DNA of 64,000 nucleotides from Planctomycetia bacterium (GCA_005776885.1 SXOD01000020.1:1-64000); one strand, 5' to 3'; counted from the first letter of the stretch, positions 30,423-48,548 are shown. Made by a program: numbers and translations. The notes: generated from the letters alone by a model not told the origin.

Positions 30423-30884
30423 ATGACTGCGGCCCTGAGCGAGATCCTGTCCCTGACGGCGGTGAAGGTGCCGCTTGTGGCCACCACTCGGCAGGGGGCG
30501 ATCGACGAACTGGTGGACCTGCTCGCGGCGCAGGGCGACATCGGTGACGCGGAGACACTCAAGAAGAGCGTCTGGGAGCGCGAGTGCCAACGATCGACTG
30601 GCATTGGGGAGGGGCTGGCCATCCCGCACGGCAAGTGCGCGACCGCCTCACGGCTGGCGCTCGCGGCGGGCATCTGTGCCGAGCCGATTGACTTTCAGTC
30701 CATCGACAAGAAGCCGGTCCACATGATCCTGCTCCTCATTTCGCCACCGGACCGAATCACCGACCACATCCAGGCCCTCGGGCGGATCAGCCGCGCGCTC
30801 TCCAGTGCGTCGGTGAGGCAGCAGGCATACTCGTCCAAGGACGCGAGGGCGCTCTACGAGCTCCTCGCCCAGCACGGCGCCTGA
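30423..30884 (+). CDS. ptsN: PTS EIIA (fructose/Ntr type) domain protein
   Basis: STGIGEGLAIPHGKC phosphorylatable-His motif; FQSIDKKPVHMILLLISPPDRITDHIQALGRISRAL. Confidence 0.88.
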   Translation: MTAALSEILSLTAVKVPLVATTRQGAIDELVDLLAAQGDIGDAETLKKSVWERECQRSTGIGEGLAIPHGKCATASRLALAAGICAEPIDFQSIDKKPVHMILLLISPPDRITDHIQALGRISRALSSASVRQQAYSSKDARALYELLAQHGA

Positions 30885-35318: not shown

Positions 35319-35864
35319 ATGGCCGATCTGGTCCCGGTGACTCTGGCGCGACTGCTCATCCGCGAGATGGCCGACATGCAGTTGGTGGAGCTCCGGGAGA
35401 AGGACGGGGATCGACGATTCCCGATTGCGATCGGCCTGCCCGAGGCGTTCGCCATCGAGCGTCGCTGCAAGGGCCAGGCCGTCGAACGTCCCCAGACGCA
35501 CGACCTCCTGGCGAGCACGATCCAGGCCCTTGGCGGCACACTGGCCCGCGTGGAGATCAACGACCTGCGCGATGGCACGTTCTTCGCGCGGCTCGTCGTC
35601 GTGCACGATGGGACCGAAGTCATGATCGACAGCCGCCCCAGCGACGCGATCGCCCTTGCCGTTGCGGAAGACACGCCGCTCTTCGTCGCCGAACACGTGC
35701 TGGGCGAAGCATCGATCGATGCCTCGTGCCCAGACCTGGCCGCTCAATCGTCGGACGAGGACGAGGGTGACGACGGCCCGGAATCGACTTCATCCGGGTC
35801 CGACGACGACTCAGACGACGACTCAGACGACGACGCAGACGACGACTCAGACGACGACGACTGA
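35319..35864 (+). CDS. Bifunctional nuclease (BFN/DUF151)-like protein with poly-Asp/Ser tail
   Basis: FPIAIGLPEAFAIERRCKGQAVERPQTHDLLASTIQALGGTLARVEINDLRDGTFFARLVV...IDSRPSDAIALAV; tail GSDDDSDDDSDDDADDDSDDDD. Confidence 0.88.
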   Translation: MADLVPVTLARLLIREMADMQLVELREKDGDRRFPIAIGLPEAFAIERRCKGQAVERPQTHDLLASTIQALGGTLARVEINDLRDGTFFARLVVVHDGTEVMIDSRPSDAIALAVAEDTPLFVAEHVLGEASIDASCPDLAAQSSDEDEGDDGPESTSSGSDDDSDDDSDDDADDDSDDDD

Positions 35865-37153
35865 TCGCGATGGCGGCGACGGCTGGCATCCTCAGGCGCG
35901 GCGCCGAGGAGTTCGTGGAGGAGGCTGGTCGCGAAGGCGCCGGCGGGAAGGTCAAACGCCAGGCGAATCGAGCCGCCGTGCTCGTCCATGCTGGCTTCCA
36001 CGTGAGGGTTCCTGATCGGGACGCGCAGCGGCCGCCTCGCACCCAGCGCGGCGTACTGGCTGGATCGCCATTCGCCTCCGTCCAGACGGAAGGCGGCCAT
36101 GGCCTCTCGTTCCATGGCGAGCACCTCGCCTGCCGGCTCGTCCATCTCGGTCCCGAAGAGCGGGCCGCTGGGCGAGAGTTCGCCGGCGGCAATCCGAGCC
36201 TCGATGTCCAGCCGCTGGGGCGAATCGGACGCCCGCGCCTCGTCAAAATGAAAGCGGCCATGCGCACCCGGCCGCCAGAGAATGTCGCCCAGCAACGGCC
36301 GGTGGATCGTCCCCGCCCCAAGTCGCAGGTCGACGACCCGGTTGAAGACCGCGCTCTGGATGCCGCTGACGAAGAACTCCAGGGCCTGCGCGCCCGCCGC
36401 GTGGATCGCCATGGGAAGGGGCCGTCCCTTCGCGCACGCCAGGAGGACGCGCCGTTCGTTCCGCTGTCCTCCACCGAGGAGCGCTGCGGCATCTTGAAAC
36501 TGCCCGGCGGCAGCCAAGGCCCGAGCCCGTTTCAATCGATCCGAATCGAGCGCCGAGCCCTCGCCGAGCATCACTGCGAGGAATCGATCCCACTGCCCGT
36601 GGAGGAGGCACCAGCCCAGCACGTGGTTGGTCTGGAAGAGGCCGAATCGCTGCGGACCGTAGGCGTCCGGCAAGCCAGTCTCCACCAGCGACTGCATGCG
36701 CCGCCAGATGGTGGGAACGAGCAGGGGATCGATCGAGCGAAGCCGGATGCTGAATCGATTGCCGCGCAGCTGCCCTCGCCGAAGCCGGTGCCGGTGCCGC
36801 ATCGACCAGAGGATTCCCATGTCGTCCCACTGCGGATCCACCGCGGGCGCGTTCCGTTGGCACAGGTGAATTGAAGCGGTCTGAAGCGTGATCGCGTGGC
36901 GATCCTTCATTCCCGCAGTGCCGATCGACGACGACGGCACGCCGAAGTGGCGAGCCAGGCGTGCCACCATCTCCTGATGATCCACACCGCGCTTCTGGAC
37001 GCCGACGTAGAGGTGTTCTCCCTCTCCGGTGGGATCGAACAATGGAAGTTCATCCACGAGGAAGTCCTCGGGTCGCTCCTTGATCGATGCATGGATGGGC
37101 GCAACGTCCAGCAGCGTGCGTCGCGCCAGCGGCGGTGGCAGGTCGGGACTCAT
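35744..37153 (-). CDS. truD: tRNA pseudouridine(13) synthase TruD with Ser-rich C-terminal tail
   Basis: IKERPEDFLVDELP, GTAGMKDRHAITLQ (catalytic Asp), RGNRFSIRLR, GLPDAYGPQRFG. Confidence 0.9.
   Translation of the reverse strand: MSPDLPPPLARRTLLDVAPIHASIKERPEDFLVDELPLFDPTGEGEHLYVGVQKRGVDHQEMVARLARHFGVPSSSIGTAGMKDRHAITLQTASIHLCQRNAPAVDPQWDDMGILWSMRHRHRLRRGQLRGNRFSIRLRSIDPLLVPTIWRRMQSLVETGLPDAYGPQRFGLFQTNHVLGWCLLHGQWDRFLAVMLGEGSALDSDRLKRARALAAAGQFQDAAALLGGGQRNERRVLLACAKGRPLPMAIHAAGAQALEFFVSGIQSAVFNRVVDLRLGAGTIHRPLLGDILWRPGAHGRFHFDEARASDSPQRLDIEARIAAGELSPSGPLFGTEMDEPAGEVLAMEREAMAAFRLDGGEWRSSQYAALGARRPLRVPIRNPHVEASMDEHGGSIRLAFDLPAGAFATSLLHELLGAAPEDASRRRHRDQSSSSESSSASSSESSSESSSDPDEVDSGPSSPSSSSDD
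35802..35861. repeat. 12-bp minisatellite (GACGACGACTCA-type), coding on both strands
   Basis: gacgacgactca gacgacgactca gacgacgacgca gacgacgactca gacgacgacgac. Confidence 0.95.
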
Positions 37154-37163
37154 TGGGCCGACG

Positions 37164-38486
37164 TTAGCGTCGGCGGCGCCCGCGGGCCATCATCGAACCG
37201 CCAAGTCCCAGGAGCACCAAGGCGCCGGGGGCGGGGACGCTCGGCGCAGCGTCCCCGTCGGTGCTGTTTGGCACGACGGAGTCGTCCAGCGGATCGGTCG
37301 GCACCTGTGGGCGGACGACGATCACGCCATTGTCAGGCGGATTGCGATGGCCGGGGTCCTTCCCGTCGGGGTCATCAGGGTCGTTGGGGTCACCGGGACC
37401 ATCTGGGTCATCAGGATCGCCAGGATCATTCGGGTCGGTCGGGTCAGACGGGTCACCCCCGGTCGGGTCGTCCCCATCTGGCTCAAAATCCTCGCCATCG
37501 ATTGGCAGGTCCGGATTGGTCACGATCGTGTACTCATTGCCCGCCTGGCCACCGTCGGGGTTGATGGCGGGAGCGTTTCCGTACGTCATGGAGATGGCGG
37601 AAGGGATCGGGAGGGTTCCTTCCATCTCGCCGTCGTCGTATTGGTCCGGGAACAACACCTTCAGGCGCGAGACACTTGCCTTGTCGATGCCAAGCTGCCC
37701 GCCAAGCGCGGCATCGGGATCGCCGGAGGCGCAGACAGGAATCAGCTGGATGCGCGTGCTGGAGCCCGGCGGAAGCGTGATTTCATAGCCCGTGATGAAC
37801 GCGCCAGTCGGGATGCCCAAGTCGCGCGAACCATCCAGCCCGAGTGCGACAAAGTCCGTGGCGGGCGAGACGCTCAGCGGATCCTCCACGCTGCCCCGTC
37901 CTTGCGCGAGCATGTCAGCCGTGATCGTGAAGGAGTTCTTGCACTGGATCGGGGATTGGTCAGCGCCGCCACACATCGCGCGGAAGTTGGTGCCCACCGG
38001 GAACTCGCCCATCACGATGAGCTCCGGGTCTCGATCCTCTTCCTCCGCCAGGTCAGGCTGTGACGAGCCAAGAAAGAGCTGGATCTTCGTAGGCGCCGCA
38101 CCAGAAAGGTGGACCCACTTGTCGATGGCCGGCCATGCCTGACTGCCGCCCTTGAGGGCGTCGTGGAGTGCTGGGTCGCTGTTGGGGACGAACGAGCCGT
38201 CCACGCTGCCCTCAAGCACCTCGGTCTTGCCGACAGGGAAAACATACGACGAACTGGTGATTGGGTTCTTCCCGCCGAAGTCAAGCGTGTTCAGCGTCAG
38301 GCGTTGCGTCGCGGCGTTCACCTCGAGCCCGCTGCGGCTGCCGGCGAAAGATTGCGCCATCGCCGTGCCGCTCACGAGGAGACTGAAGGCCCCAACGGCT
38401 GCCACGGGCAACGAGAACGGCGGTGCCGATCGCACGGTTGCGCCGAAGCGACTCAAGCCTCCGCAAGGTCCAAGCTCTCGAAGCAT
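37164..38486 (-). CDS. Secreted PEP-CTERM-like anchored protein with Asp/Pro-rich spacer
   Basis: Signal VGAFSLLVSGTAMAQ; spacer GDPSDPTDPNDPGDPDDPDGPGDPNDPDDPDGKDPG; C-term VPAPGALVLLGLGGSMMARGRRRR; SD-like gagggaaag upstream of ATG. Confidence 0.82.
   Translation of the reverse strand: MLRELGPCGGLSRFGATVRSAPPFSLPVAAVGAFSLLVSGTAMAQSFAGSRSGLEVNAATQRLTLNTLDFGGKNPITSSSYVFPVGKTEVLEGSVDGSFVPNSDPALHDALKGGSQAWPAIDKWVHLSGAAPTKIQLFLGSSQPDLAEEEDRDPELIVMGEFPVGTNFRAMCGGADQSPIQCKNSFTITADMLAQGRGSVEDPLSVSPATDFVALGLDGSRDLGIPTGAFITGYEITLPPGSSTRIQLIPVCASGDPDAALGGQLGIDKASVSRLKVLFPDQYDDGEMEGTLPIPSAISMTYGNAPAINPDGGQAGNEYTIVTNPDLPIDGEDFEPDGDDPTGGDPSDPTDPNDPGDPDDPDGPGDPNDPDDPDGKDPGHRNPPDNGVIVVRPQVPTDPLDDSVVPNSTDGDAAPSVPAPGALVLLGLGGSMMARGRRRR
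37366..37485 (-). repeat. Degenerate codon-phased repeat encoding Asp-Pro-rich linker
   Basis: Successive gtcatcagg / gtcaccggg / atcgccagg-type 9-mers on the + strand. Confidence 0.7.
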
Positions 38487-38647
38487 CACTTTCCCTCTCT
38501 GACGTGCACAAACGGTGCCAGACGCGCCATCCGACGCCCAACGGGCGATCGGGGCACGGCTTCCGAAGGGAAGTATGGCGTTCGCACGGCAGAAGTCAAG
38601 ACGAATCCGGAAGTGTTCCGGCTCAGGCCCGGAACGGTCCTGCGTGG

Positions 38648-39160
38648 TTATCGGATTGCGGCGGCCCGGCGGGCCCGAAAAAACGTCCGGAGCAATCCGG
38701 CCGAGGCGGCGGCAAGCACCCCGCCGACGACCGCTGGGCGGTGATTGAGGCGGGCGTCCTGCGGGATTCGGTAGAGGGATCGGCACGCACCGGCCTTGGG
38801 GTCATCCGCGCCGTACACGATCCTGGCGAGTCGGCCGTTCACGGTGGCCCCGGCACACATGGTGCAGGGTTCCAGCGTGACGGCCATCGAACACCCCTCC
38901 AGCCGCCATCCGCCCAACCGCTGCGCGGCCAACCGCATGGCGACGATTTCGGCATGGTCCGATGGATCCGTGGATGCCTCCCGTCGATTCCCGGCCTCAC
39001 CCAGCACGTCGTCGCCCCGGTAGACGACGGCACCCACGGGCACCTCCCCCTCACCCGCCGCCCGTGCCGCCAGCGCGAGCGCTCGCTGCATCATCCTGAC
39101 GTCAAGGGCCGAGCACCCGGCGGGCAGCCGGCGGCGGCGCCTGGCCAGCGACGAACTCAT
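38648..39160 (-). CDS. tadA: tRNA-specific adenosine deaminase
   Basis: VPVGAVVYRGDDVLGEAGN, DPSDHAEIVAMRLAAQRLGGWRL, LEPCTMCAGA. Confidence 0.92.
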   Translation of the reverse strand: MSSSLARRRRRLPAGCSALDVRMMQRALALAARAAGEGEVPVGAVVYRGDDVLGEAGNRREASTDPSDHAEIVAMRLAAQRLGGWRLEGCSMAVTLEPCTMCAGATVNGRLARIVYGADDPKAGACRSLYRIPQDARLNHRPAVVGGVLAAASAGLLRTFFRARRAAAIR

Positions 39161-40200
39161 TCACCCCCCGATGCGTCGCCATCCGGCTCACGCATTCGGC
39201 GTCCCACGCTTCCGGCGGCCACGCGATGGGCGGGGGCGATCACGAGCAGCACGATGCTTCCCTCGTAGAGTGCGTAGAGCGGGACGATCAGGAGCACCAT
39301 CGTCAGGATGTCGCCGGGCCCGGCGATGGCGGCAACCACCGTGATGGCCATGAGCGCGATCCGCCGCTTGGATCGAAGCATCGGGGGATCGACCACGCCA
39401 AGCCAGCCGAGGAGGAGCACGGCGACCGGCAGCTGGAACGTGATGGCCACCGCGGCGGCGACCAGCAAGACGAAGTCGATGTAGTCCTTGAGCCGGAAGA
39501 CTTGGTGCAGCGCGTTGGGCCGGTTCATCCCGATCGTCACGATTTCCAGCCCAGCGGAGGCCATCCCCTCCGCCGTCGGCGACGAGGCCTCGGATTGTTC
39601 GGTGGTCGCTGGAATCGCCAGGCGCAGTTCGTGTGCCGTCGAGTTGAACCACATCTCGCCCGGTGCGGCGACCGTGGGATCGGCGGTGACCACGGGCAGC
39701 GACGGTGACCCATCATGCGCCCGGGCGCCAGCGGTGATGACGGTCGGAGCCGACTCGCCGAAGCCGATGAGCCCCGCCATCATCAGGGGCAACATCACCC
39801 AGTAGAGGAGCGACATGCCTCCCACGACGAGGAGGGACGAGAGCGGCACCAGGAACCGCGCAAAGCGCCGTTCGTGGATGTAGAGGCCGGGGGAGACGAA
39901 GAGCCAGAACTGCCAGAGCACCCACGGTGCGCTCACGACCAACGCCGCGATGAGGGAGAGCTTGAAGTCGGTGGTGAGTGCCTCGACCGGCGACATCACC
40001 TGCATCGACGTCGGGAGGCCGCGCGCTTGCTGCGCCGCAAAGACGGGCGCGCACAGGAACTGGCGCATGTGCGGCGCAACGAAGAACAGGGCGATCGAGG
40101 CGGGGAGCGGGATGGCCAGCGCCCAGAAGATCCTGCGACGGAGCTCCTCCAGGTGCCCACCGAAGGGCATCGACCCACTCTCCTGTGACGAATCGATCAT
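39157..40200 (-). CDS. tatC: Sec-independent translocase TatC with extended periplasmic loop
   Basis: FGGHLEELRRRIFWAL, FVSPGLYIHERRFARFLVPLSSLLVVGGMSLLYWVMLP, DYIDFVLL...QLPVAVLLLGWLGVVDPPMLRSKRRIALMAITVVAAIAGPGD; ATGA overlaps on both sides. Confidence 0.92.
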   Translation of the reverse strand: MIDSSQESGSMPFGGHLEELRRRIFWALAIPLPASIALFFVAPHMRQFLCAPVFAAQQARGLPTSMQVMSPVEALTTDFKLSLIAALVVSAPWVLWQFWLFVSPGLYIHERRFARFLVPLSSLLVVGGMSLLYWVMLPLMMAGLIGFGESAPTVITAGARAHDGSPSLPVVTADPTVAAPGEMWFNSTAHELRLAIPATTEQSEASSPTAEGMASAGLEIVTIGMNRPNALHQVFRLKDYIDFVLLVAAAVAITFQLPVAVLLLGWLGVVDPPMLRSKRRIALMAITVVAAIAGPGDILTMVLLIVPLYALYEGSIVLLVIAPAHRVAAGSVGRRMREPDGDASGGE

Positions 40201-41015
40201 GGGGCTGGTGGTGGTGACGGGGCGGCGCACGCCGCCGCCAGTGCGGGGCCGAAGAAGGTTACCGCGTTGGCGTCCAGCTGACGCTCGAACGCTTCAGGGT
40301 CGATGCCCCGCACGCGCGCCAGACACTCGGCGACGTGCCCGACGAATCTCGGGGCATTTGGACGCACGGACCGGTGGGGCTCGGGCGTGAGGAACGGGGC
40401 ATCGGTCTCCACCATCACGCGGTCCGCGGGAACAAGCGCAGCGGCTTCGCGGATGGCGGCGGCATTCTTGAAGGTCGCCGCGCCGGTGAAGGAGATCCAC
40501 GCTCCCGCGTCCAGAATCTGGCGTGCCTCGTCCGCCGTCTCGGTGAAGCAGTGAAAGACCATCTCGTCCATCGGGATGCCCGAGGCACGCAACACGGGAA
40601 GGAGCCTGGGGACGGCCTTGCGGCAATGGACGACCAGCGGCTTCCCCACGCCTTCCGCGCGCAGGCATCCGATCCGAGCGAGTTGCTCGGTCAACACGCG
40701 CTCCTGCACGGCGGGCAGGGGGCGCTCGTGGTGTTCGTCAAGCCCGAGCTCGCCGAAGGCCACGCACCGCTCGTCACGGGACAGTTCCGCGTGCCGGGCC
40801 CAGTCGATGGGCTGGTCGGCGTAGCTCGGATGGATGCCGACGCTGAACACCACCCGAGGATCGGCATGCGCGATGTCCCGGGCCTCCCCGGCATCGGTCG
40901 TTGTCGTGGAGATCGTGATCGCGGCCCGCACCCCCGCGGCGCGCGCGTCATCCATCACTCGACGGACATCGTGCCTGAACTCTGGGAAGGTGAGATGGCA
41001 GTGGGTGTCGATCAC
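40197..41015 (-). CDS. tatD: TatD family hydrolase (GTG start)
   Basis: VIDTHCHLTFPEF, FSVGIHPSYAD, FGELGLDEHHER, VVHCRKA, VFHCFTET, VMVETDAPFLTPEPHR. Confidence 0.94.
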   Translation of the reverse strand: MIDTHCHLTFPEFRHDVRRVMDDARAAGVRAAITISTTTTDAGEARDIAHADPRVVFSVGIHPSYADQPIDWARHAELSRDERCVAFGELGLDEHHERPLPAVQERVLTEQLARIGCLRAEGVGKPLVVHCRKAVPRLLPVLRASGIPMDEMVFHCFTETADEARQILDAGAWISFTGAATFKNAAAIREAAALVPADRVMVETDAPFLTPEPHRSVRPNAPRFVGHVAECLARVRGIDPEAFERQLDANAVTFFGPALAAACAAPSPPPAP

Positions 41016-42418
41016 GGGAGGGTCGATTCGTCTCGTCGCAGCGCCAGGCGCAGGAACGCCGGCCCGAGCAGTGCATTGAACACCACCATCCCCAGCAGCA
41101 TGGCGTGCATGGATCGAGCCCACGGATGGCCACCGAGTTGGCTCTCGAAGTCCGCCAGCAGCGCGATGGCCACGGCCGCCTGCGGGAGGAAGGCCATCCA
41201 GGCATTGGCGCGCAGCGATGGCGATGGCGCGCGAGTCGCCGGCAGGGCGGCCCGGCATGCCAGCCAGAGTCCGCCCGCGCGCATCAAGGCCAACCCGAGC
41301 GCGACGGGGGCCAATGCGAGGGCGGCACCCAAGTCCAGTCGCGCCCCGATGATGGGGAATGCCACGCAGAGCACGGGAACGAGATAGGTGTCCGTCGCGT
41401 GGGTGAGCCGAGCGGCGTCCAGTCTCGGGAAGTTGGCGGCAGCGATGCCTGCGGCCAGGCTGGTGAGCAGTATGGAGAGGTCGAAGTGGATGGCCACCGC
41501 AACGATCACCACGGCCGAGAGTCCGGCGAGAGCATCGTCACGGATCGGTGTTCGTGCGGCCAACCACGCCAGCATCGGCCCGACGATCGCCCCGGCGAGC
41601 AGGCTTCCCACCAGGTGGGTGGCGACCGTTGCCATTCCTTCCACCAATCCGGCGCCTTCGGTGCTTCCGGGGCCCAAAGCCACGGCGCCGCCGAGCACCG
41701 CCGTGAAGGCGACGGTCAGCACCAGGTCCTTGAGGATCGTCGTGGCCAGTGCGGTGCGCGCGACGATCCCCCTTGCGCCAAGTTCGCGCACCACCGCCAC
41801 GACGATGGCGGGGCTGTTGGCAACCAAGACCATCCCCGCCGCCAGGCTCCCCAGGATGAGGCCCGGCTGGAGCGATCCTTCCAGGTGCCACCCGGCGGGT
41901 GCCGCGATGGCCACGGCGAAAAGGGCTGCGGCCCCCGCTGGCGCCAGGAGTGCCAGCTGCCAACCCACCAGTCGGAGCGAGACGTGGAGGTGAGGTCGCA
42001 ACACGCTGGCGCGGAGCTCACTGCCGGCCAGCAGGCCGATCAACGCGATGGCGGCGTCGTCGACCAGTGCCACGCTTGAGAGGGCACGATCATCAAGGAT
42101 CGTGACCGGGAAGTGGGCGAGCGCCGCAAGTCCTGGGCCGGCGGCGAGTCCCACCAACAGGTAGCCGGTGACTCGCGGGAGTGACGCACACTCCGCGAGT
42201 CGGCCCGCGACCCACCCGCTGAGCAGGAGCCACCCAAGCATGAAGGGCCCCAGTGCCGACTCGGGCACGTCCCCGACGCTGCCCCACCGCACGGCAGCAC
42301 CGGCAATCGTCAACATCAGCATGGCCAGCGCCAGCATGTGTGGACCGCGCACCGCGGCCTTTGTGATCGCGAACGCAGGATTGCCTTCGCGTCCGCTCAA
42401 CCGGGAACCCTCCGCCAC
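41012..42418 (-). CDS. CPA2-type cation/proton antiporter-like membrane protein
   Basis: Kef/Nha-like TM protein: LPRVTGYLLVGLAAGP...LSSVALVDDAAIALIGLLAGSEL, LGSLAAGMVLVANSPAIVVAVVRELGARG. Confidence 0.78.
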   Translation of the reverse strand: MAEGSRLSGREGNPAFAITKAAVRGPHMLALAMLMLTIAGAAVRWGSVGDVPESALGPFMLGWLLLSGWVAGRLAECASLPRVTGYLLVGLAAGPGLAALAHFPVTILDDRALSSVALVDDAAIALIGLLAGSELRASVLRPHLHVSLRLVGWQLALLAPAGAAALFAVAIAAPAGWHLEGSLQPGLILGSLAAGMVLVANSPAIVVAVVRELGARGIVARTALATTILKDLVLTVAFTAVLGGAVALGPGSTEGAGLVEGMATVATHLVGSLLAGAIVGPMLAWLAARTPIRDDALAGLSAVVIVAVAIHFDLSILLTSLAAGIAAANFPRLDAARLTHATDTYLVPVLCVAFPIIGARLDLGAALALAPVALGLALMRAGGLWLACRAALPATRAPSPSLRANAWMAFLPQAAVAIALLADFESQLGGHPWARSMHAMLLGMVVFNALLGPAFLRLALRRDESTLP

Positions 42419-43626
42419 GCCATGCGCCGAATGTTCGCAATGGCCAGTGGCGCGATCGACACGAACGGCGCCGTCAGGGCCACGGCCAGCAGGAGGCCTC
42501 GCGCCAGCGGCGATGGAGTGAACAGCGCAAAGTTGAGGGCCAGCGCCACGGCGAGCGGTGCCTGCCGTGACGTGGCGTGCATGAGTGGGCTGGCAAGATC
42601 AACGGAGGTTCCTTCGTGGCGAAGGGCGTCACGCAAGAGCGCGGGCTTCAGCACCAGTCGGGTTGCCGCGAACGCCATCGGCAAGAGGAGCCACCACATG
42701 GAATGCCCGGAGGCCCCGTAGAACCCCGCTCCCAGTTGGACCAGCCACGCCGCGAGCGGCTCCAGCTTTTGTGCGACGGATTCGATGGAGAGCAGTGCGC
42801 CTCGAACGTTGGCCACTGCCGCGCCGACGAGCAGTGCCAGCAGCATCGGCCCGATCCCGACGATGCCAGCCGCGCCAGCGGCAAATGCCATCATGCCGAT
42901 GAGGACCACCATCCGGCGTGTCGCCATGGCGGAATCCGGGACTCGGTCGGCCATCACCACCCAGCCCGCACCGACGATGGCGGCCGCTGCCACCAGCGCA
43001 CGCGCCAGGCCCACCGGTTCCTGCCAGGATGCGGCCACGCTGGCGATCGCGAGGCCGAGGAGAGCCGCCAGGCCGCTCCCGGCCTGCACGATCGTGGCGA
43101 GTCGACCCGACGCCACCTCAAATCGAACGCGGAGCGACCGGGTCTCTGGATTCCACCCGGACAGGGCCACGAAGATCGTGACGCCGCCCAGGAGCAGCGC
43201 ACTTGGTCCAGCCGCGACGCCTGTGCGGGCGAGGATGACGGTGGCCAACAGCGCGAGCAACGCGGCGACGACCAAATCGATCCACACCAGCCGCCAGAGC
43301 ACGCCGGGCACCCTGCGCAAGAGCAGGGGACGGGCCTGCATTCCCACGATGAGGGCCACCCACGCACACCCGATCACGAAGAGGGGTTCCAGTTTTGTGG
43401 CTGTGTCCGAGTCGACCATGGACAGGCTCTCCGGTCCGGCCGCTGCGCCAAGGGCCAGGGGAATGACGCCGGATGAGGCAAGGGCGGCGACGGCCGGCCG
43501 ACGGCGCCACCGTCGAAAGCGCGTGCTGATGGTGGCCAGCGCCAGCACTCCCACGATCGTGGCCAGAAGGGCGAGCAGGAGGGGGCTGGCTGGCGTGGCA
43601 GCGGTATGGGTCACGGTGTCAGTCAC
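42397..43626 (-). CDS. Second antiporter-like polytopic membrane protein (GTG start)
   Basis: About 12 hydrophobic segments; organisation resembles the downstream CPA2-like gene; 22-bp overlap with it. Confidence 0.65.
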   Translation of the reverse strand: MTDTVTHTAATPASPLLLALLATIVGVLALATISTRFRRWRRRPAVAALASSGVIPLALGAAAGPESLSMVDSDTATKLEPLFVIGCAWVALIVGMQARPLLLRRVPGVLWRLVWIDLVVAALLALLATVILARTGVAAGPSALLLGGVTIFVALSGWNPETRSLRVRFEVASGRLATIVQAGSGLAALLGLAIASVAASWQEPVGLARALVAAAAIVGAGWVVMADRVPDSAMATRRMVVLIGMMAFAAGAAGIVGIGPMLLALLVGAAVANVRGALLSIESVAQKLEPLAAWLVQLGAGFYGASGHSMWWLLLPMAFAATRLVLKPALLRDALRHEGTSVDLASPLMHATSRQAPLAVALALNFALFTPSPLARGLLLAVALTAPFVSIAPLAIANIRRMAWRRVPG

Positions 43627-43975
43627 CGGGGAGGACCGATCCGGCGAGCGGGAGTGCCGCGATGATCGGGCGGTCGGACGCCGGGAGCTGACGAGCGAAT
43701 CGCAACGCCGTGTCGGCGGCCGCCGCGGGGGCGATCGCGAGCAGCACTCGACTGCCGCTCGCGGCGGGAAGCAATGCAGCGAGCCCGGAGAAGATCGGGA
43801 GTTCTTCACGGAGGATCGACGCGAGGCCCCGACTCTCTATGACGGTGCCCCCCGGCACGCCGGCATCGAGGAACACATTGACCAGTTGTTCAAATCCGGA
43901 CTCGGACCGGGCGATCCCGATCAGGAGTTGCTGCGAGGAGCCCGAAAGTCCGGCGCTTGGAGCAGGGTCAGTCAT
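43619..43975 (-). CDS. Small P-II-like (ferredoxin-like fold) regulatory protein
   Basis: LLIGIARSESGFEQLVNVFLDAGVPGGTVIESRGLASILREELPIFSGL...RPIIAALPLAGSV resembles P-II-like GATVIESRG / IIxxLPV pattern; overlaps both neighbours by 8 bp. Confidence 0.6.
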   Translation of the reverse strand: MTDPAPSAGLSGSSQQLLIGIARSESGFEQLVNVFLDAGVPGGTVIESRGLASILREELPIFSGLAALLPAASGSRVLLAIAPAAAADTALRFARQLPASDRPIIAALPLAGSVLPGD

Positions 43976-44426
43976 GGCGCTGGTCCTCCTCCCGAAGTGC
44001 GGCCTCGAGGCTCGCGGAATCGATCGATCCCCGGAGGCGGGCAGCGCTTGCGGGGTCGCGGAGGATCCTGGCCAACCTCGCGAGCAGTTGCACATGATTC
44101 CATGGCTGTGTCGAAGGTCCTATAATGCATATCACTAGTGTTATAGGACTATGAGGTCCATCCCATTCGATTCCGGACTTCACGAGTAGCGGTAGGACCT
44201 GAAACTTGGTCGCCTTTGGGAGGATGGCGTGCGGAATGGCCAACCCATCGGCCACGATGGTCCCTCCTTGTGCCTCGCGGGCGAGGAGAGCTCCCTTGAC
44301 CGCCGATTGATCGAGGGCCGGATCTTCGGCCGCTGCGAGCGCAGCCAATCGCCGAAACGCATCGTCGCGAGAGAGCCGATCTTCCACCTGGGCGGCTCCG
44401 AACGCGAGTGAGTCTCTGACACGCAT
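43968..44426 (-). CDS. EIIA(Ntr)/fructose-type PTS domain protein
   Basis: GTIVADGLAIPHAIL His motif; PITLVICIIGPSTQPWNHVQLLARLARILRDP. Confidence 0.82.
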   Translation of the reverse strand: MRVRDSLAFGAAQVEDRLSRDDAFRRLAALAAAEDPALDQSAVKGALLAREAQGGTIVADGLAIPHAILPKATKFQVLPLLVKSGIEWDGPHSPITLVICIIGPSTQPWNHVQLLARLARILRDPASAARLRGSIDSASLEAALREEDQRHD

Positions 44427-44458
44427 TGTTGAAAGGTTATCGCCTGCTTGACCGACCG

Positions 44459-44486
44459 GAACTCAGGACACTACGATCCTGAGTTC
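44459..44486. promoter_or_regulatory. Perfect 10-bp inverted repeat (GAACTCAGGA-N8-TCCTGAGTTC) upstream of the ACIII operon
   Basis: Arms 44459-44468 and 44477-44486, 8-nt spacer, in the short divergent intergenic region. Confidence 0.6.
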
Positions 44487-44489
44487 GAG

Positions 44490-44509
44490 ATTGTGAAAAA
44501 ATGCACAAT
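44490..44509. promoter_or_regulatory. CRP/FNR-like palindrome ATTGTGA-N6-GCACAAT
   Basis: ATTGTG aaaaaatg CACAAT; TGTGA-N6-GCACA matches 9/10 of the CRP core TGTGA-N6-TCACA. Confidence 0.4.
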
Positions 44510-45181
44510 GTCGCAGGGCCGCCACCCGTGAGCAGATTCCTCTTCCCTCGTTGGACCAATCTCGTCCTGCCCCTGATCCTCATCGTGGGGGCCACCGCGC
44601 CGATCTACATGGCTTTCGTGGTGGCCTACGGGCTCAGCCCGAAGACGCTTGACGTGGGGTACCAGCCGACGCAACCCGTGCCGTACTCCCACGCGCTCCA
44701 CGTCGGGGAGCTTGGCCTGGATTGCCGGTACTGCCACAACACGGTCGAGTCATCCCCGCAAGCCTCCGTCCCGCCGACGCAGACGTGCATGAACTGCCAT
44801 ACGCAGATCCGCAAGGAGTCGCTCAAGCTGGAGCCCGTCCGAGCTTCCTACGAGTCGGGCATGCCGATCGAGTGGACGCGGGTGAACAAGGTTGGCGATT
44901 ACGCCTACTTCGACCACAGCGCCCACGTGAATCGCGGCGTTTCGTGCGTGGAGTGCCACGGACGCGTCGACCAGATGGAAGTGGTGCAGCGCGCTGCGCC
45001 GCTGAGCATGGGGTGGTGCCTGGAGTGCCACCGCGACCCGATCGATCGCATTCGCCCCGTCAGTGAGGTCTTCAACCTCGGGTGGGACGCTGCGGCCAGC
45101 CTCACGGATGCCGACCGCGACGCCCTCGTCCGGCAGTACCACCTCAACCCCAGCGAGAACTGCTCGACCTGCCATCGCTGA
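44501..45181 (+). CDS. actA: Alternative complex III subunit ActA, pentaheme c-type cytochrome
   Basis: Five CxxCH motifs (CRYCH, CMNCH, CVECH, CLECH, CSTCH) after one TM; alternative GTG start at 44528. Confidence 0.93.
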   Translation: MHNVAGPPPVSRFLFPRWTNLVLPLILIVGATAPIYMAFVVAYGLSPKTLDVGYQPTQPVPYSHALHVGELGLDCRYCHNTVESSPQASVPPTQTCMNCHTQIRKESLKLEPVRASYESGMPIEWTRVNKVGDYAYFDHSAHVNRGVSCVECHGRVDQMEVVQRAAPLSMGWCLECHRDPIDRIRPVSEVFNLGWDAAASLTDADRDALVRQYHLNPSENCSTCHR

Positions 45182-45272
45182 TCGCGACGGACGGGACTGA
45201 GCATCCCAGACAAGCACGACCGAGACAGACACTGGCCGCCCCGCGGCCGACCAGCACAGGTACCACGAAGCG

Positions 45273-48200
45273 ATGCAGACCCCGCCCACCTGCCAGTCGA
45301 AGGCCGAGACGACCAGCGCGAGCGTTGCCCCCAAGGGGAAGACGCTCTGGCGCAGCGTCGCCGAGTTCGAGGGAACACCTGAGTTCGCCGCGCTCGTGCA
45401 GCGCGAGTTCCCCGAGGGCGCCGACACGGCCAGCCACGAGGAACGTCGACAATTCATCCGCGTCATGGGCGCCAGTTTCGCCCTGGCCGGCTTGGCGATC
45501 ACCGGATGCCGCCGATGGCCTGAGCAGAAGATCGCCCCGTATGCCAGCCGACCGGCCACCCGCATGCCCGGGCAGGCGGTTCGCTACGCCACGTGTGTGG
45601 AGATCGACGGCGTGGGCACGCCGATCCTCGCCAAGAGCCTGGATGGCCGGCCGATCAAGGTGGACGGCAATGGCAGCGTTGCCGGCGCGACCGGCGGCAC
45701 GAGCGCCGGCGTCCAAGGAACGGTGCTTGATCTCTACGACCCGGACCGGCTCCGCGTCGTGCTTCACGAGGGTCACGAATCCAGCGTGCCCGAGTTCCAG
45801 GCCTTTGCGGCAAACGAGATTGGCAGGCTCCGCGGGACGCAGGGTGCCGGATTGGCGTTCCTCCTTGAGCCGACCGCGAGCCCCTCCCGCGTCGCGATGC
45901 GGCAGGCGATCGCCAAGAGCTTTCCCAAGGCTTCCATGCACGAGTGGACGCCGCGTCACGGCGACGCCGAGCGGGCCGGCACCGCGGCAGCCTTTGGCAG
46001 TGCCAAGCGGCCTTTCCTGAAGTTGGATGAGGCAAAGATCGTCGTCGCGTTTGACGCCGACGTCCTGATGGATGGCGCCGATGCACCCCGAGTGACCGCA
46101 GCATGGGCCTCCACCCGCCGCGTGAACGGGGAGGGCGCAGCGCACCAGGAACTGTCCCGCCTCTACTCGTTCGAGAGTCGACTCAGCGTCACCGGCATGA
46201 ACGCCGACGAGCGCGTGGCGATGCGCTCGAGCGAGATCGCCAATGTGGTGGCAGAGTTCGCCAAGCGACTGGGGGTCGACGGCGGCGACCTCAACGTCCG
46301 CAACGCGCTGGCCGGATTGGGAAGCGGCGCCAAGCTCGACTCCCATGCCGAGGCCGTGCTGGCCGCGGCCGTGAAGGACGTCCAAGCCGCCAAGGGCAAG
46401 TGTGCCGTGGTGGCCGGTCCTGCCCAACCCGCCGCGGTGCACGCGCTGGTCGCGCTGGTCAACGAGCGGATCGGTGCGGCTGGACGGACCGTCACCTATG
46501 CGCCCGCGACGGGCCCGTCCTCATGCGTCGACAGCATTGCCGCGCTGACCGCTGCACTGAACGCGGGCTCGATCGAGACGCTGGTCATCTGCGGCGCCAA
46601 CCCGGCCTACGACGCCCCGCCGGAGCTGGCCTTCGGTGATGCGATGGCCAAGGCCAAGCACGTGGTTCGACTTGCCGAGAAGCTCGACGAGACCGGCGCG
46701 CTCACTTCGTGCCACTGGAGCATTCCCGCCGCGCACTCGTTGGAGTGCTGGGGCGATTCGGTGGCGGCCGACGGCACGATCCTCCTGCAGCAGCCGCTCA
46801 TCCTTCCGCTCATCGAGCCGAACGCCGGCGGCCTGTCGGAAATCGAGCTGCTCGCGATGCTGGCCGATGAGAAGGCCACGACTCGCGCCGGCTACGACGT
46901 GGTGCGAGAGGTGCATGCCAAGCGCGTGGCGTCCAGCGGCTCCGCGTTTGAAGCCTCCTGGCGCGCCGCACTCGAGTCCGGAGCCATGGGCTCCAGTTAC
47001 AGCACTTCCGCCCCGACCGTCAACGCCGGGGCCGTGGCCTCCATGGCACTGAGCCACAAGGCCGCGACCGGGCAGGGCATCGAGCTCGTGCTCTTCACCG
47101 ACAGCAAGGTCCTCGCGGGCCGATGGTCCAACAACGCCTGGTTGCAGGAGTTGCCGGATGCGGTCACCAAGGTCACCTGGGACAACACGCTCAACCTCGC
47201 TCCAGCGACCGCGAAGTCGATGGGTGTCAGGCACGGCAGCGTCGTCACGGTGACGGTCGATGGCCGCAGCGTCGACGCCGCAGTCTTCGTCCTCCCCGGC
47301 CATGCCGAGGGATCGGCCTCACTCGCTCTCGGCTACGGCCGCGGCGCGGTCGCCGGCCGCATCGCCGACGGTGCGGGATGCGATTCCTTCTCGCTCCGCG
47401 AAGGTGGCGCCGACCTCCAGGCCGCCACGTTCCAGCCCACCGGCCGGACCTACCCCATCGCCAACACGCAGGACAAGGGCATCGCCGAGGCGATCATGCC
47501 CGAGGTTCCGCTGCAGGGCATCCAGGATCGACTCCCCACGCTGGTGCGCGAAGGCACGCTGGAGGAGTATCGGCTCCACCCGGACTTCGCCAAGCACCGC
47601 ACGCACGTGGTGCATCGACTGAGCCTGTGGGAAGAGTCCAACCTGGACGGTGCGCAGTTCCGCTGGGCGATGTCGGTGGACCTCAACACCTGCACCGGCT
47701 GCAGCGCGTGCGTCACCGCGTGCCAGTCGGAGAACAACATCCCCGTCGTCGGCAAGTCGATGGTCCTGCGCGGACGCGAGATGTCGTGGATTCGCCTCGA
47801 CCGCTACTTCAAGGGAAGCGACCCGAGCAGCCCCGTCGACTATCGCATCCAGCCCGTGGCGTGCCAGCACTGCGAAAACGCGCCGTGCGAGCAGGTGTGC
47901 CCCGTCGCGGCGACCGTCCACGACAAGGACGGCCTCAACGTGATGGTCTACAACCGCTGCATCGGCACGCGGTACTGCTCCAACAACTGCCCGTACAAGG
48001 TCCGTCGATTCAACTTCTTCGACTACAACGCGAAGCGGCCCGAGCGCGAGGAGGGATTCCTCAAGACCGACCTGGGCTACTACGAGCGCTACTACACGCT
48101 CAACCGTGACGAGGGCCCGGACCTCTTCCGGCAGATGCAGTTCAATCCCGATGTCACCGTGCGTTCGCGCGGCGTCATGGAAAAGTGCACCTTCTGCACG

Positions 48201-48544
48201 CAGCGCATCCAGGAAGCCAAGATCGACTTCAAGAACCGGTGGGCGCAGAAGGGTGGCGAGAAAGCCGGCACGGCCAACTTCTCGATTCCCGACGGCGCGA
48301 TCGTCACCGCCTGCCAGCAGGCTTGCCCGGCGGGCGCCATCGTCTTTGGCGACCTCAACGACGCCAACAGCCAGGTCGCCAAGCTGTTCAGCCAGGGACG
48401 CTCCTACCAGATGCTCGAGGAACTGAACACGAAGACCCGCCTGCGCTACCTGGCCAAGGTCACCAACCCGGCCTTGCCTCGCGAGGATGACCCGCACGCC
48501 GGCCACGACCACAGCCACGACGGCCACGACCACGAGACCCACGC

Positions 48545-48548
<4 letters not shown>
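45273..48548 (+). CDS. actB: Alternative complex III subunit ActB, molybdopterin-oxidoreductase-like plus Fe-S domain
   Basis: TAT-like [84 protein letters not shown]. Confidence 0.95.

Follow-up and report, generated by a model that had tools for sequence, protein, structure and literature searches.

Does the run of four overlapping minus-strand genes in a 64,000-nucleotide stretch from a Planctomycetia bacterium (GCA_005776885.1, SXOD01000020.1:1-64000; hereafter the window) encode a single regulated ion exchanger, or four proteins whose genes happen to be neighbours? The genes encode an EIIA protein, a PII-like protein (PIIL) and two membrane proteins related to cation/proton antiporters (CPA), AntA and AntB. 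An earlier annotation made from the DNA alone, the sequence-only reading, had proposed translationally coupled genes for an ion antiport system gated by two metabolic inputs; the coordinates and frames of its four open reading frames were confirmed from the sequence. Our analysis favours, with reasonable confidence, the interpretation that the four genes form one regulated cation/proton exchange system, with a heteromer of AntA and AntB gated by EIIA together with PIIL.

The first line of evidence is comparative. A search with AntB matched 21 relatives besides the genome of the window itself, and in the neighbourhoods obtained from AntB-matching relatives EIIA, PIIL, AntA and AntB were found together and in the same order in 19 of 20. 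The closest named relatives are metagenome-assembled genomes of Planctomycetota, many of them Phycisphaerales. Across 61 genomes, PIIL and AntB were both present in 20 and both absent in 39; AntB occurred alone in 2, and PIIL never did (Fisher P=4e-14, a value inflated by the kinship of the genomes); this pattern reflects more than clade membership, since it is patchy inside one family. Additionally, a scan of 84,980 genomes yielded 55 loci, many of them found via PIIL motifs from a Phycisphaerae alignment and hence a biased sample of bacteria. After removal of duplicates, the exact order EIIA-PIIL-AntA-AntB was present in 39 of 73 distinct loci, and loci with this order belong to Planctomycetota, Myxococcota and a Deltaproteobacterium. 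A lack of conserved gene order in relatives, which the sequence-only reading had named as grounds for giving up the proposal, was thus not found.

Variants of the arrangement are also informative. In four Desulfobacteraceae loci (L123, L124, L127, L129) the EIIA-PIIL pair converges with an AntA-AntB pair on the opposite strand, a form also observed in L130, which is labelled only Proteobacteria. An additional AntB is present in a few Phycisphaeraceae. In one planctomycete family (f17; L069, L070, L073, L075) a fusion protein of 270-290 aa, encoded upstream of AntA, combines an EIIA-like domain with PIIL. The EIIA part of this fusion matches Pfam in all four members (5e-7 to 3e-3; a single match passes the curated cut-off), aligns with the cassette EIIA (hhalign E=4.5e-8) and keeps the His. 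Since both proteins are fused in this family, EIIA and PIIL appear to be closely linked, and no other comparative evidence speaks as strongly for a joint function of the parts as this fusion and the joint rearrangement of the genes. A separate arrangement was observed in another locus of the same phylum (L072, 2598-6539), where EIIA, antiporter, PIIL, antiporter and PIIL genes lie in a row; this antiporter-PIIL pair is duplicated, and the antiporters are of the Asp-Asp type.

The second line of evidence concerns the two membrane proteins. Residues were counted over alignments of 61 AntB and 59 AntA sequences, with transmembrane helices (TM) numbered after the usual CPA scheme by alignment rather than by coordinates. 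The TM5 Asp, which is required in characterised CPA antiporters, is kept in 60 of the 61 AntB sequences, usually as Lys-Asp; the TM3 Glu is kept in 56 of 61, and the TM4 S-P break is also retained. The Na_H_Exchanger domain of AntB stops at residue 457 of 468, leaving neither an RCK nor another C-terminal regulatory domain. AntB represents the sole PF00999 match in the genome of the window, an assembly of 2.49 Mb that is 84.6% complete, and absences from it are provisional.

The AntA of the window has no Pfam or NCBIfam match, and neither does PIIL; both proteins were therefore assigned through their relatives and predicted structures. For AntA, 12 of 44 relatives match PF00999. Searches against PDB with the AntA profile returned only noise, as did the single-sequence search with AntB. 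The AlphaFold model of AntA (predicted local distance difference test, pLDDT, 92) matched NhaP, SOS1, SLC9C1, KefC and NapA in Foldseek (best E 2e-5, probability 1.0), and on this model AntA is assigned the CPA (NhaP/KefC) fold. The family-to-family hhalign comparison (99.6%; weak when AntA was compared with the single AntB sequence) identifies AntA as a distant paralogue of AntB.

At the site aligned with the TM5 Asp, this residue is present in only 7 of 59 AntA sequences and lost in 52. The seven Asp-bearing proteins come from Deltaproteobacteria, Myxococcota and a few planctomycetes, and their other motifs are nearer the standard ones. In 45 AntA sequences, including that of the window, the Asp is replaced, and none lies within one residue of the site, the alignment register of TM5 being uncertain by one residue. 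All 45 carry both the Glu of a GWxPE motif in TM4 and the Arg of an RQ motif in TM10 (Glu161 and Arg354 in the window), fixed although identity to the window AntA falls to 22-34% for most. An interpretation as two equivalent antiporters was rejected on the difference in TM5 Asp retention between AntB and AntA. The earlier description of two antiporter-like subunits accordingly holds for AntB, with its intramembrane Asp, and needs amendment for AntA, where a Glu/Arg pair is found without the Asp. Judged from these residues, the two are probably a transport subunit and a remodelled, non-transporting partner. Retention of the Asp in AntB, together with its loss and the new Glu/Arg pair in AntA, supports the earlier suggestion of a hetero-oligomer more specifically than was originally argued.

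PIIL had been called P-II-like by pattern, and its predicted structure agrees with this assignment. Among its aligned relatives, 15 of 20 match Pfam P-II (PF00543; best 3.3e-6), and a broader family profile matched PII structures in PDB almost over the full length (5.5e-6). An earlier, narrower profile gave only weak PII matches among PDB sequences, and the single-sequence PDB search returned only noise. The AlphaFold model (pLDDT 83) has the element order E H E (H H) E H E, that is, the beta-alpha-beta / beta-alpha-beta order of the double ferredoxin-like fold of PII. Furthermore, among the Foldseek matches listed against PDB, 50 of 50 were PII, SbtB or other PII-like proteins (probability 0.99-1.00). 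Absence of the PII fold, the other ground on which the proposal was to be abandoned, was not observed, and the model places PIIL in the PII superfamily.

The ligand sites of PII are, however, not those of PIIL. Judged by the hallmarks of GlnB/GlnK, namely B-loop G-D-G-K, T-loop Tyr51 and a C-loop Arg pair for ATP binding and uridylylation, PIIL is not a canonical PII. The family has PGTGI in place of the B-loop GDGK and Phe in place of Tyr51, within P-I-F-A-G; the B-loop of the window protein and of its close relatives is four residues shorter and glycine-free, and that of the window protein is devoid of the canonical Lys or Arg. Nucleotide gating, the second metabolic input suggested by the sequence-only reading, is consequently unsupported for this protein, in which the B-loop is deleted. 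A role as canonical nitrogen PII was likewise rejected, given that the ligand and modification residues are absent; no Pfam P-II match was found anywhere in the genome. What the family conserves instead of the T-loop is the sequence G-L-x-x-I-L/R-x-x-M-P-I-F-A-G-L, likely a contact surface. Homologues of PIIL also occur away from EIIA and antiporters (L066, L067, L068, L074), and the PIIL family is wider than the cassette.

The EIIA assignment was borne out by its Pfam match and active-site His (Table 1). The phospho-acceptor His is conserved in 59 of 59 cassette EIIAs, and a second His in 57 of 59. The protein scored 43.8 bits against the PtsN equivalog model (NCBIfam TIGR01419), under the cut-off of 138.7, and by sequence it belongs to the fructose/Ntr superfamily of EIIAs without being a PtsN equivalog. 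The genome encodes one HPr (contig C27) and one EI (N-terminal domain match, contig C57) of the phosphoenolpyruvate (PEP)-dependent phosphotransferase system (PTS). Another EIIA in the window (30423-30884, plus strand; 28% identity to the cassette EIIA) had been suggested as the generic one. The genome contains three EIIAs rather than two, and the likeliest generic protein is the third, which adjoins the HPr gene on C27. A sugar PTS permease was represented in the genome by an EIIC match below the cut-off only, on which account the PTS looks regulatory, and no EIIB or EIIC was seen adjoining the cassette EIIA. Sugar uptake was rejected as its function on both grounds. A search of the genome for the RCK TrkA_N domain, in which RCK_C was not included, gave no match.

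Two side observations concern EIIA genes. Inside the cassette EIIA gene, otherwise GC-rich, a short AT-rich stretch with rare codons (about 44109-44160, minus strand) contains the 8-bp inverted repeat TCCTATAA...TTATAGGA, and the encoded protein is normal for the family. In a Desulfobacteraceae locus (L131, 49-2428), an EIIA domain preceded, by eye, by a DNA-binding-like (helix-turn-helix) stretch is followed by a ClC-like channel gene (also by eye), near another EIIA-PIIL pair.

Overlaps between the genes had been taken as evidence for one coupled unit. The EIIA/PIIL overlap (ATGACTGA) and the PIIL/AntA overlap (GTGACTGA) are 8 bp each, as proposed. The 22 bp given for AntA/AntB hold only if AntB starts at GTG 42418; from the sequence, a start at TTG 42400 is at least as plausible, lying shortly 3' of GGAGGG and giving a 4-bp overlap (TTGA) with the AntA stop. 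Moreover, the overlapping run extends beyond AntB into TatD (GTG 41015, 4 bp), TatC (ATG about 40200, 4 bp) and then TadA. Because these downstream housekeeping genes overlap likewise, the overlaps are weak evidence of coupling, the argument that overlap proves it was rejected, and overlap alone cannot delimit the system. The cassette was defined instead by its conservation, that is, by the loci in the exact order described above and several near variants. In the region between EIIA and actA, a sigma-70 scan of the minus strand gave no convincing match, and promoter and terminator scans gave nothing useful exceeding shuffled sequence.

Table 1. Coordinates of the four-gene cassette and flanking features in the window.
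Feature	Coordinates	Strand	Basis or remarks
EIIA (PTS_EIIA_2) regulator, 152 aa	43968..44426	minus	His66 codon 44231-44229 in IPHAI; Pfam PF00359 E=1.1e-18
PIIL, PII-like protein, 118 aa	43619..43975	minus	AlphaFold2 model, Foldseek, relatives' Pfam matches, family profile
AntA, CPA-fold membrane protein	42397..43626	minus	Ala187 for TM5 Asp; Glu161 in TM4; Arg354 in TM10
AntB, CPA antiporter, 468 residues	41012..42418	minus	TM5 Asp231 (codon 41728-41726); PF00999 E=1.8e-16, residues 66-457
Divergent intergenic region EIIA/actA (alternative complex III), 74 bp	44427..44500		Presumed promoter region; coordinates
TatD-like gene	40197..41015	minus	Sequence; outside the conserved cassette; 4-bp overlap (GTGA) with AntB end
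Alternative complex III genes actA, actB	44427-48548	plus	Divergent from the cassette
tatD-tatC-tadA-truD run	35744-41015	minus	Other flank of the cassette

In the proposed mechanism, AntB, in which the Glu of TM3, the S-P break of TM4 and the Asp of TM5 are kept, would be the transporting CPA subunit and exchange a monovalent cation for protons. AntA would most likely heterodimerise with AntB and, with its ion site replaced by the Glu/Arg pair, provide the soluble regulators with a docking or locking subunit. EIIA would report PEP/carbon status through phosphorylation of His66 via EI and HPr; in its unphosphorylated form it would bind the exchanger and hold it shut, a direction taken from E. 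coli, where unphosphorylated PtsN silences the antiporter YcgO. PIIL could act as a trimeric PII-like plug or as an adaptor, and both regulators would set the state of AntA/AntB from the cytoplasmic side. The docking element may be AntA or PIIL itself, since AntB has no RCK/CorC region. The physical complex, the heterodimer of AntA and AntB, the direction in which control acts, the substrate ion (K+ or Na+), a PII trimer and a ligand of PIIL are what we infer from the data, which suggest that the cassette places ion exchange under the control of carbon or energy status. A bolder version, held only tentatively, is that the cassette represents a previously undescribed exchanger class in several phyla: an obligate CPA heterodimer of a catalytic and a pseudo-antiporter subunit, the ion site of the latter having become a Glu-Arg latch, closed or opened through a joint EIIA~P/PII-like switch. 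Ion exchange at the membrane would then be coupled directly to PEP/carbon status in these phyla.

Several observations weigh against joint gating of an AntA/AntB heteromer. AntB is devoid of the C-terminal domain on which PtsN acts in YcgO, so the contact must differ. A simple trimeric PIIL plug is doubtful, because PII plugs are known on trimeric transporters and CPA antiporters are dimers. The occurrence of Glu and Arg in 45 of 45 AntA sequences possibly records one ancestral event rather than 45 independent ones. In one near relative (L035, genome G033), AntA-AntB occurs without EIIA and PIIL. Three Firmicutes loci (L121, L126, L128) combine PIIL with a single CPA antiporter, with neither an adjacent EIIA nor AntA, and in three Desulfobacteraceae loci (L122, L125, L131) an EIIA-PIIL pair has no antiporter within the sampled stretch. 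The latter fit an explanation in which EIIA and PIIL are a soluble regulatory pair aimed elsewhere, at transcription, another transporter or the divergent alternative complex III, with the antiporters merely co-expressed; actA and actB indeed divergently adjoin the cassette in many Phycisphaerales. This explanation appears quite improbable in view of the nearly perfect co-occurrence of PIIL and AntB in the 61 genomes, the other Desulfobacteraceae, where the antiporter pair lies beside EIIA-PIIL despite the opposite strand, and the many cassettes with no alternative complex III beside them.

AntA and AntB could also be separate homodimeric antiporters of different specificity, the Glu/Arg core of AntA carrying another ion or a solute and EIIA and PIIL regulating one or both. 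The complete, high-confidence CPA fold of AntA, the strong conservation of Glu161 and Arg354 and the invariance of Gln in the G-x-Q motif of TM3 suggest function rather than decay, and deltaproteobacterial AntA retains an Asp. We nevertheless regard this as unlikely: AntA adjoins AntB in nearly all complete loci, the few AntA-only calls including contig-end cases and the divergent fusion family, and a KefC D156N structure is among the PDB matches of AntA, which has itself lost the residue required for transport in characterised antiporters. Finally, ordinary synteny would make the four genes unrelated members of a compact housekeeping block in a small GC-rich genome, with functionally meaningless overlaps. 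The similar overlaps of TatD, TatC and TadA agree with it, and many Phycisphaerales have the cassette flanked by divergent actA/actB on one side and tatD-tatC-tadA-truD on the other, the whole block being syntenic. However, the cassette occurs without this flanking block in Phycisphaeraceae, other planctomycetes and Deltaproteobacteria, and the four genes remain together where the block is gone (L041, L064, L065, L117, L119). The persistence of the cassette in other lineages identifies the flanking block itself as ordinary synteny, whereas the cassette genes rearrange jointly and, in one family, include a fused pair. Synteny as the explanation of the cassette is largely refuted by gene order and PIIL/AntB co-occurrence, and we consider it highly improbable.

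If joint gating of an AntA/AntB heteromer is correct, the cassette would offer a defined genetic unit for studying how PEP/carbon status sets ion exchange in bacteria where the PTS imports no sugar, and AntA/AntB would be a natural CPA dimer in which one half has traded transport for control. A literature search, with subscription journals mostly outside it, found no account of the cassette, of an exchanger controlled by both EIIA and PII, of EIIA fused to PII or of a paired pseudo-antiporter. The cassette genes may already appear as neighbours in annotation pipelines.

Among known systems, the closest to the EIIA side of the cassette is found in E. coli, where unphosphorylated PtsN (EIIANtr) binds and inhibits the CPA1 K+/H+ antiporter YcgO/CvrA, docking on its C-terminal RCK/CorC region (PMC11808508); this precedent makes the EIIA-regulated antiporter of the sequence-only reading a realistic idea. 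Both systems combine an EIIA bearing a phosphorylatable His with a CPA antiporter, but AntB ends without the docking region and YcgO has no paired degenerate CPA subunit. To our knowledge, ptsN and ycgO share no operon with a PII-like gene. On the PII side, gating of transporters is established for GlnK on AmtB and SbtB on SbtA, and is restricted to trimeric transporters (PMC10710835). The cassette resembles these systems in encoding a PII-superfamily protein, predicted to gate and structurally matching SbtB and GlnK, together with a transporter. It differs in that they act on a trimeric bicarbonate transporter or an ammonium channel, that their adenine-nucleotide control uses the B-loop lost from the window PIIL, and that no EIIA is involved. 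PEPE_1480 of Firmicutes (PDB 3m05) is a structural match of PIIL at Foldseek rank 29, as a fold match only, and the Firmicutes PII-like loci described above differ from the cassette in their single antiporter.

The K+/H+ antiporters KhtTU and CpeAB also place a CPA antiporter under a separate soluble subunit encoded alongside (PMC10117811). Their soluble subunit is an RCK_C protein that binds cyclic di-AMP, and they have a single membrane subunit and lack both EIIA and PII. KefC/KefF and NhaP/NapA share the fold of AntA and AntB, and the TM5 Asp of AntB; the known ones are homodimers, AntA has no such Asp, and KefC carries Gln-Asp (D156) where AntB mostly has Lys-Asp. Regulation of antiporters by EIIA and of transporters by PII is thus known separately, and the novelty of the cassette would lie in bringing the two together on a single exchanger that has a remodelled partner subunit.

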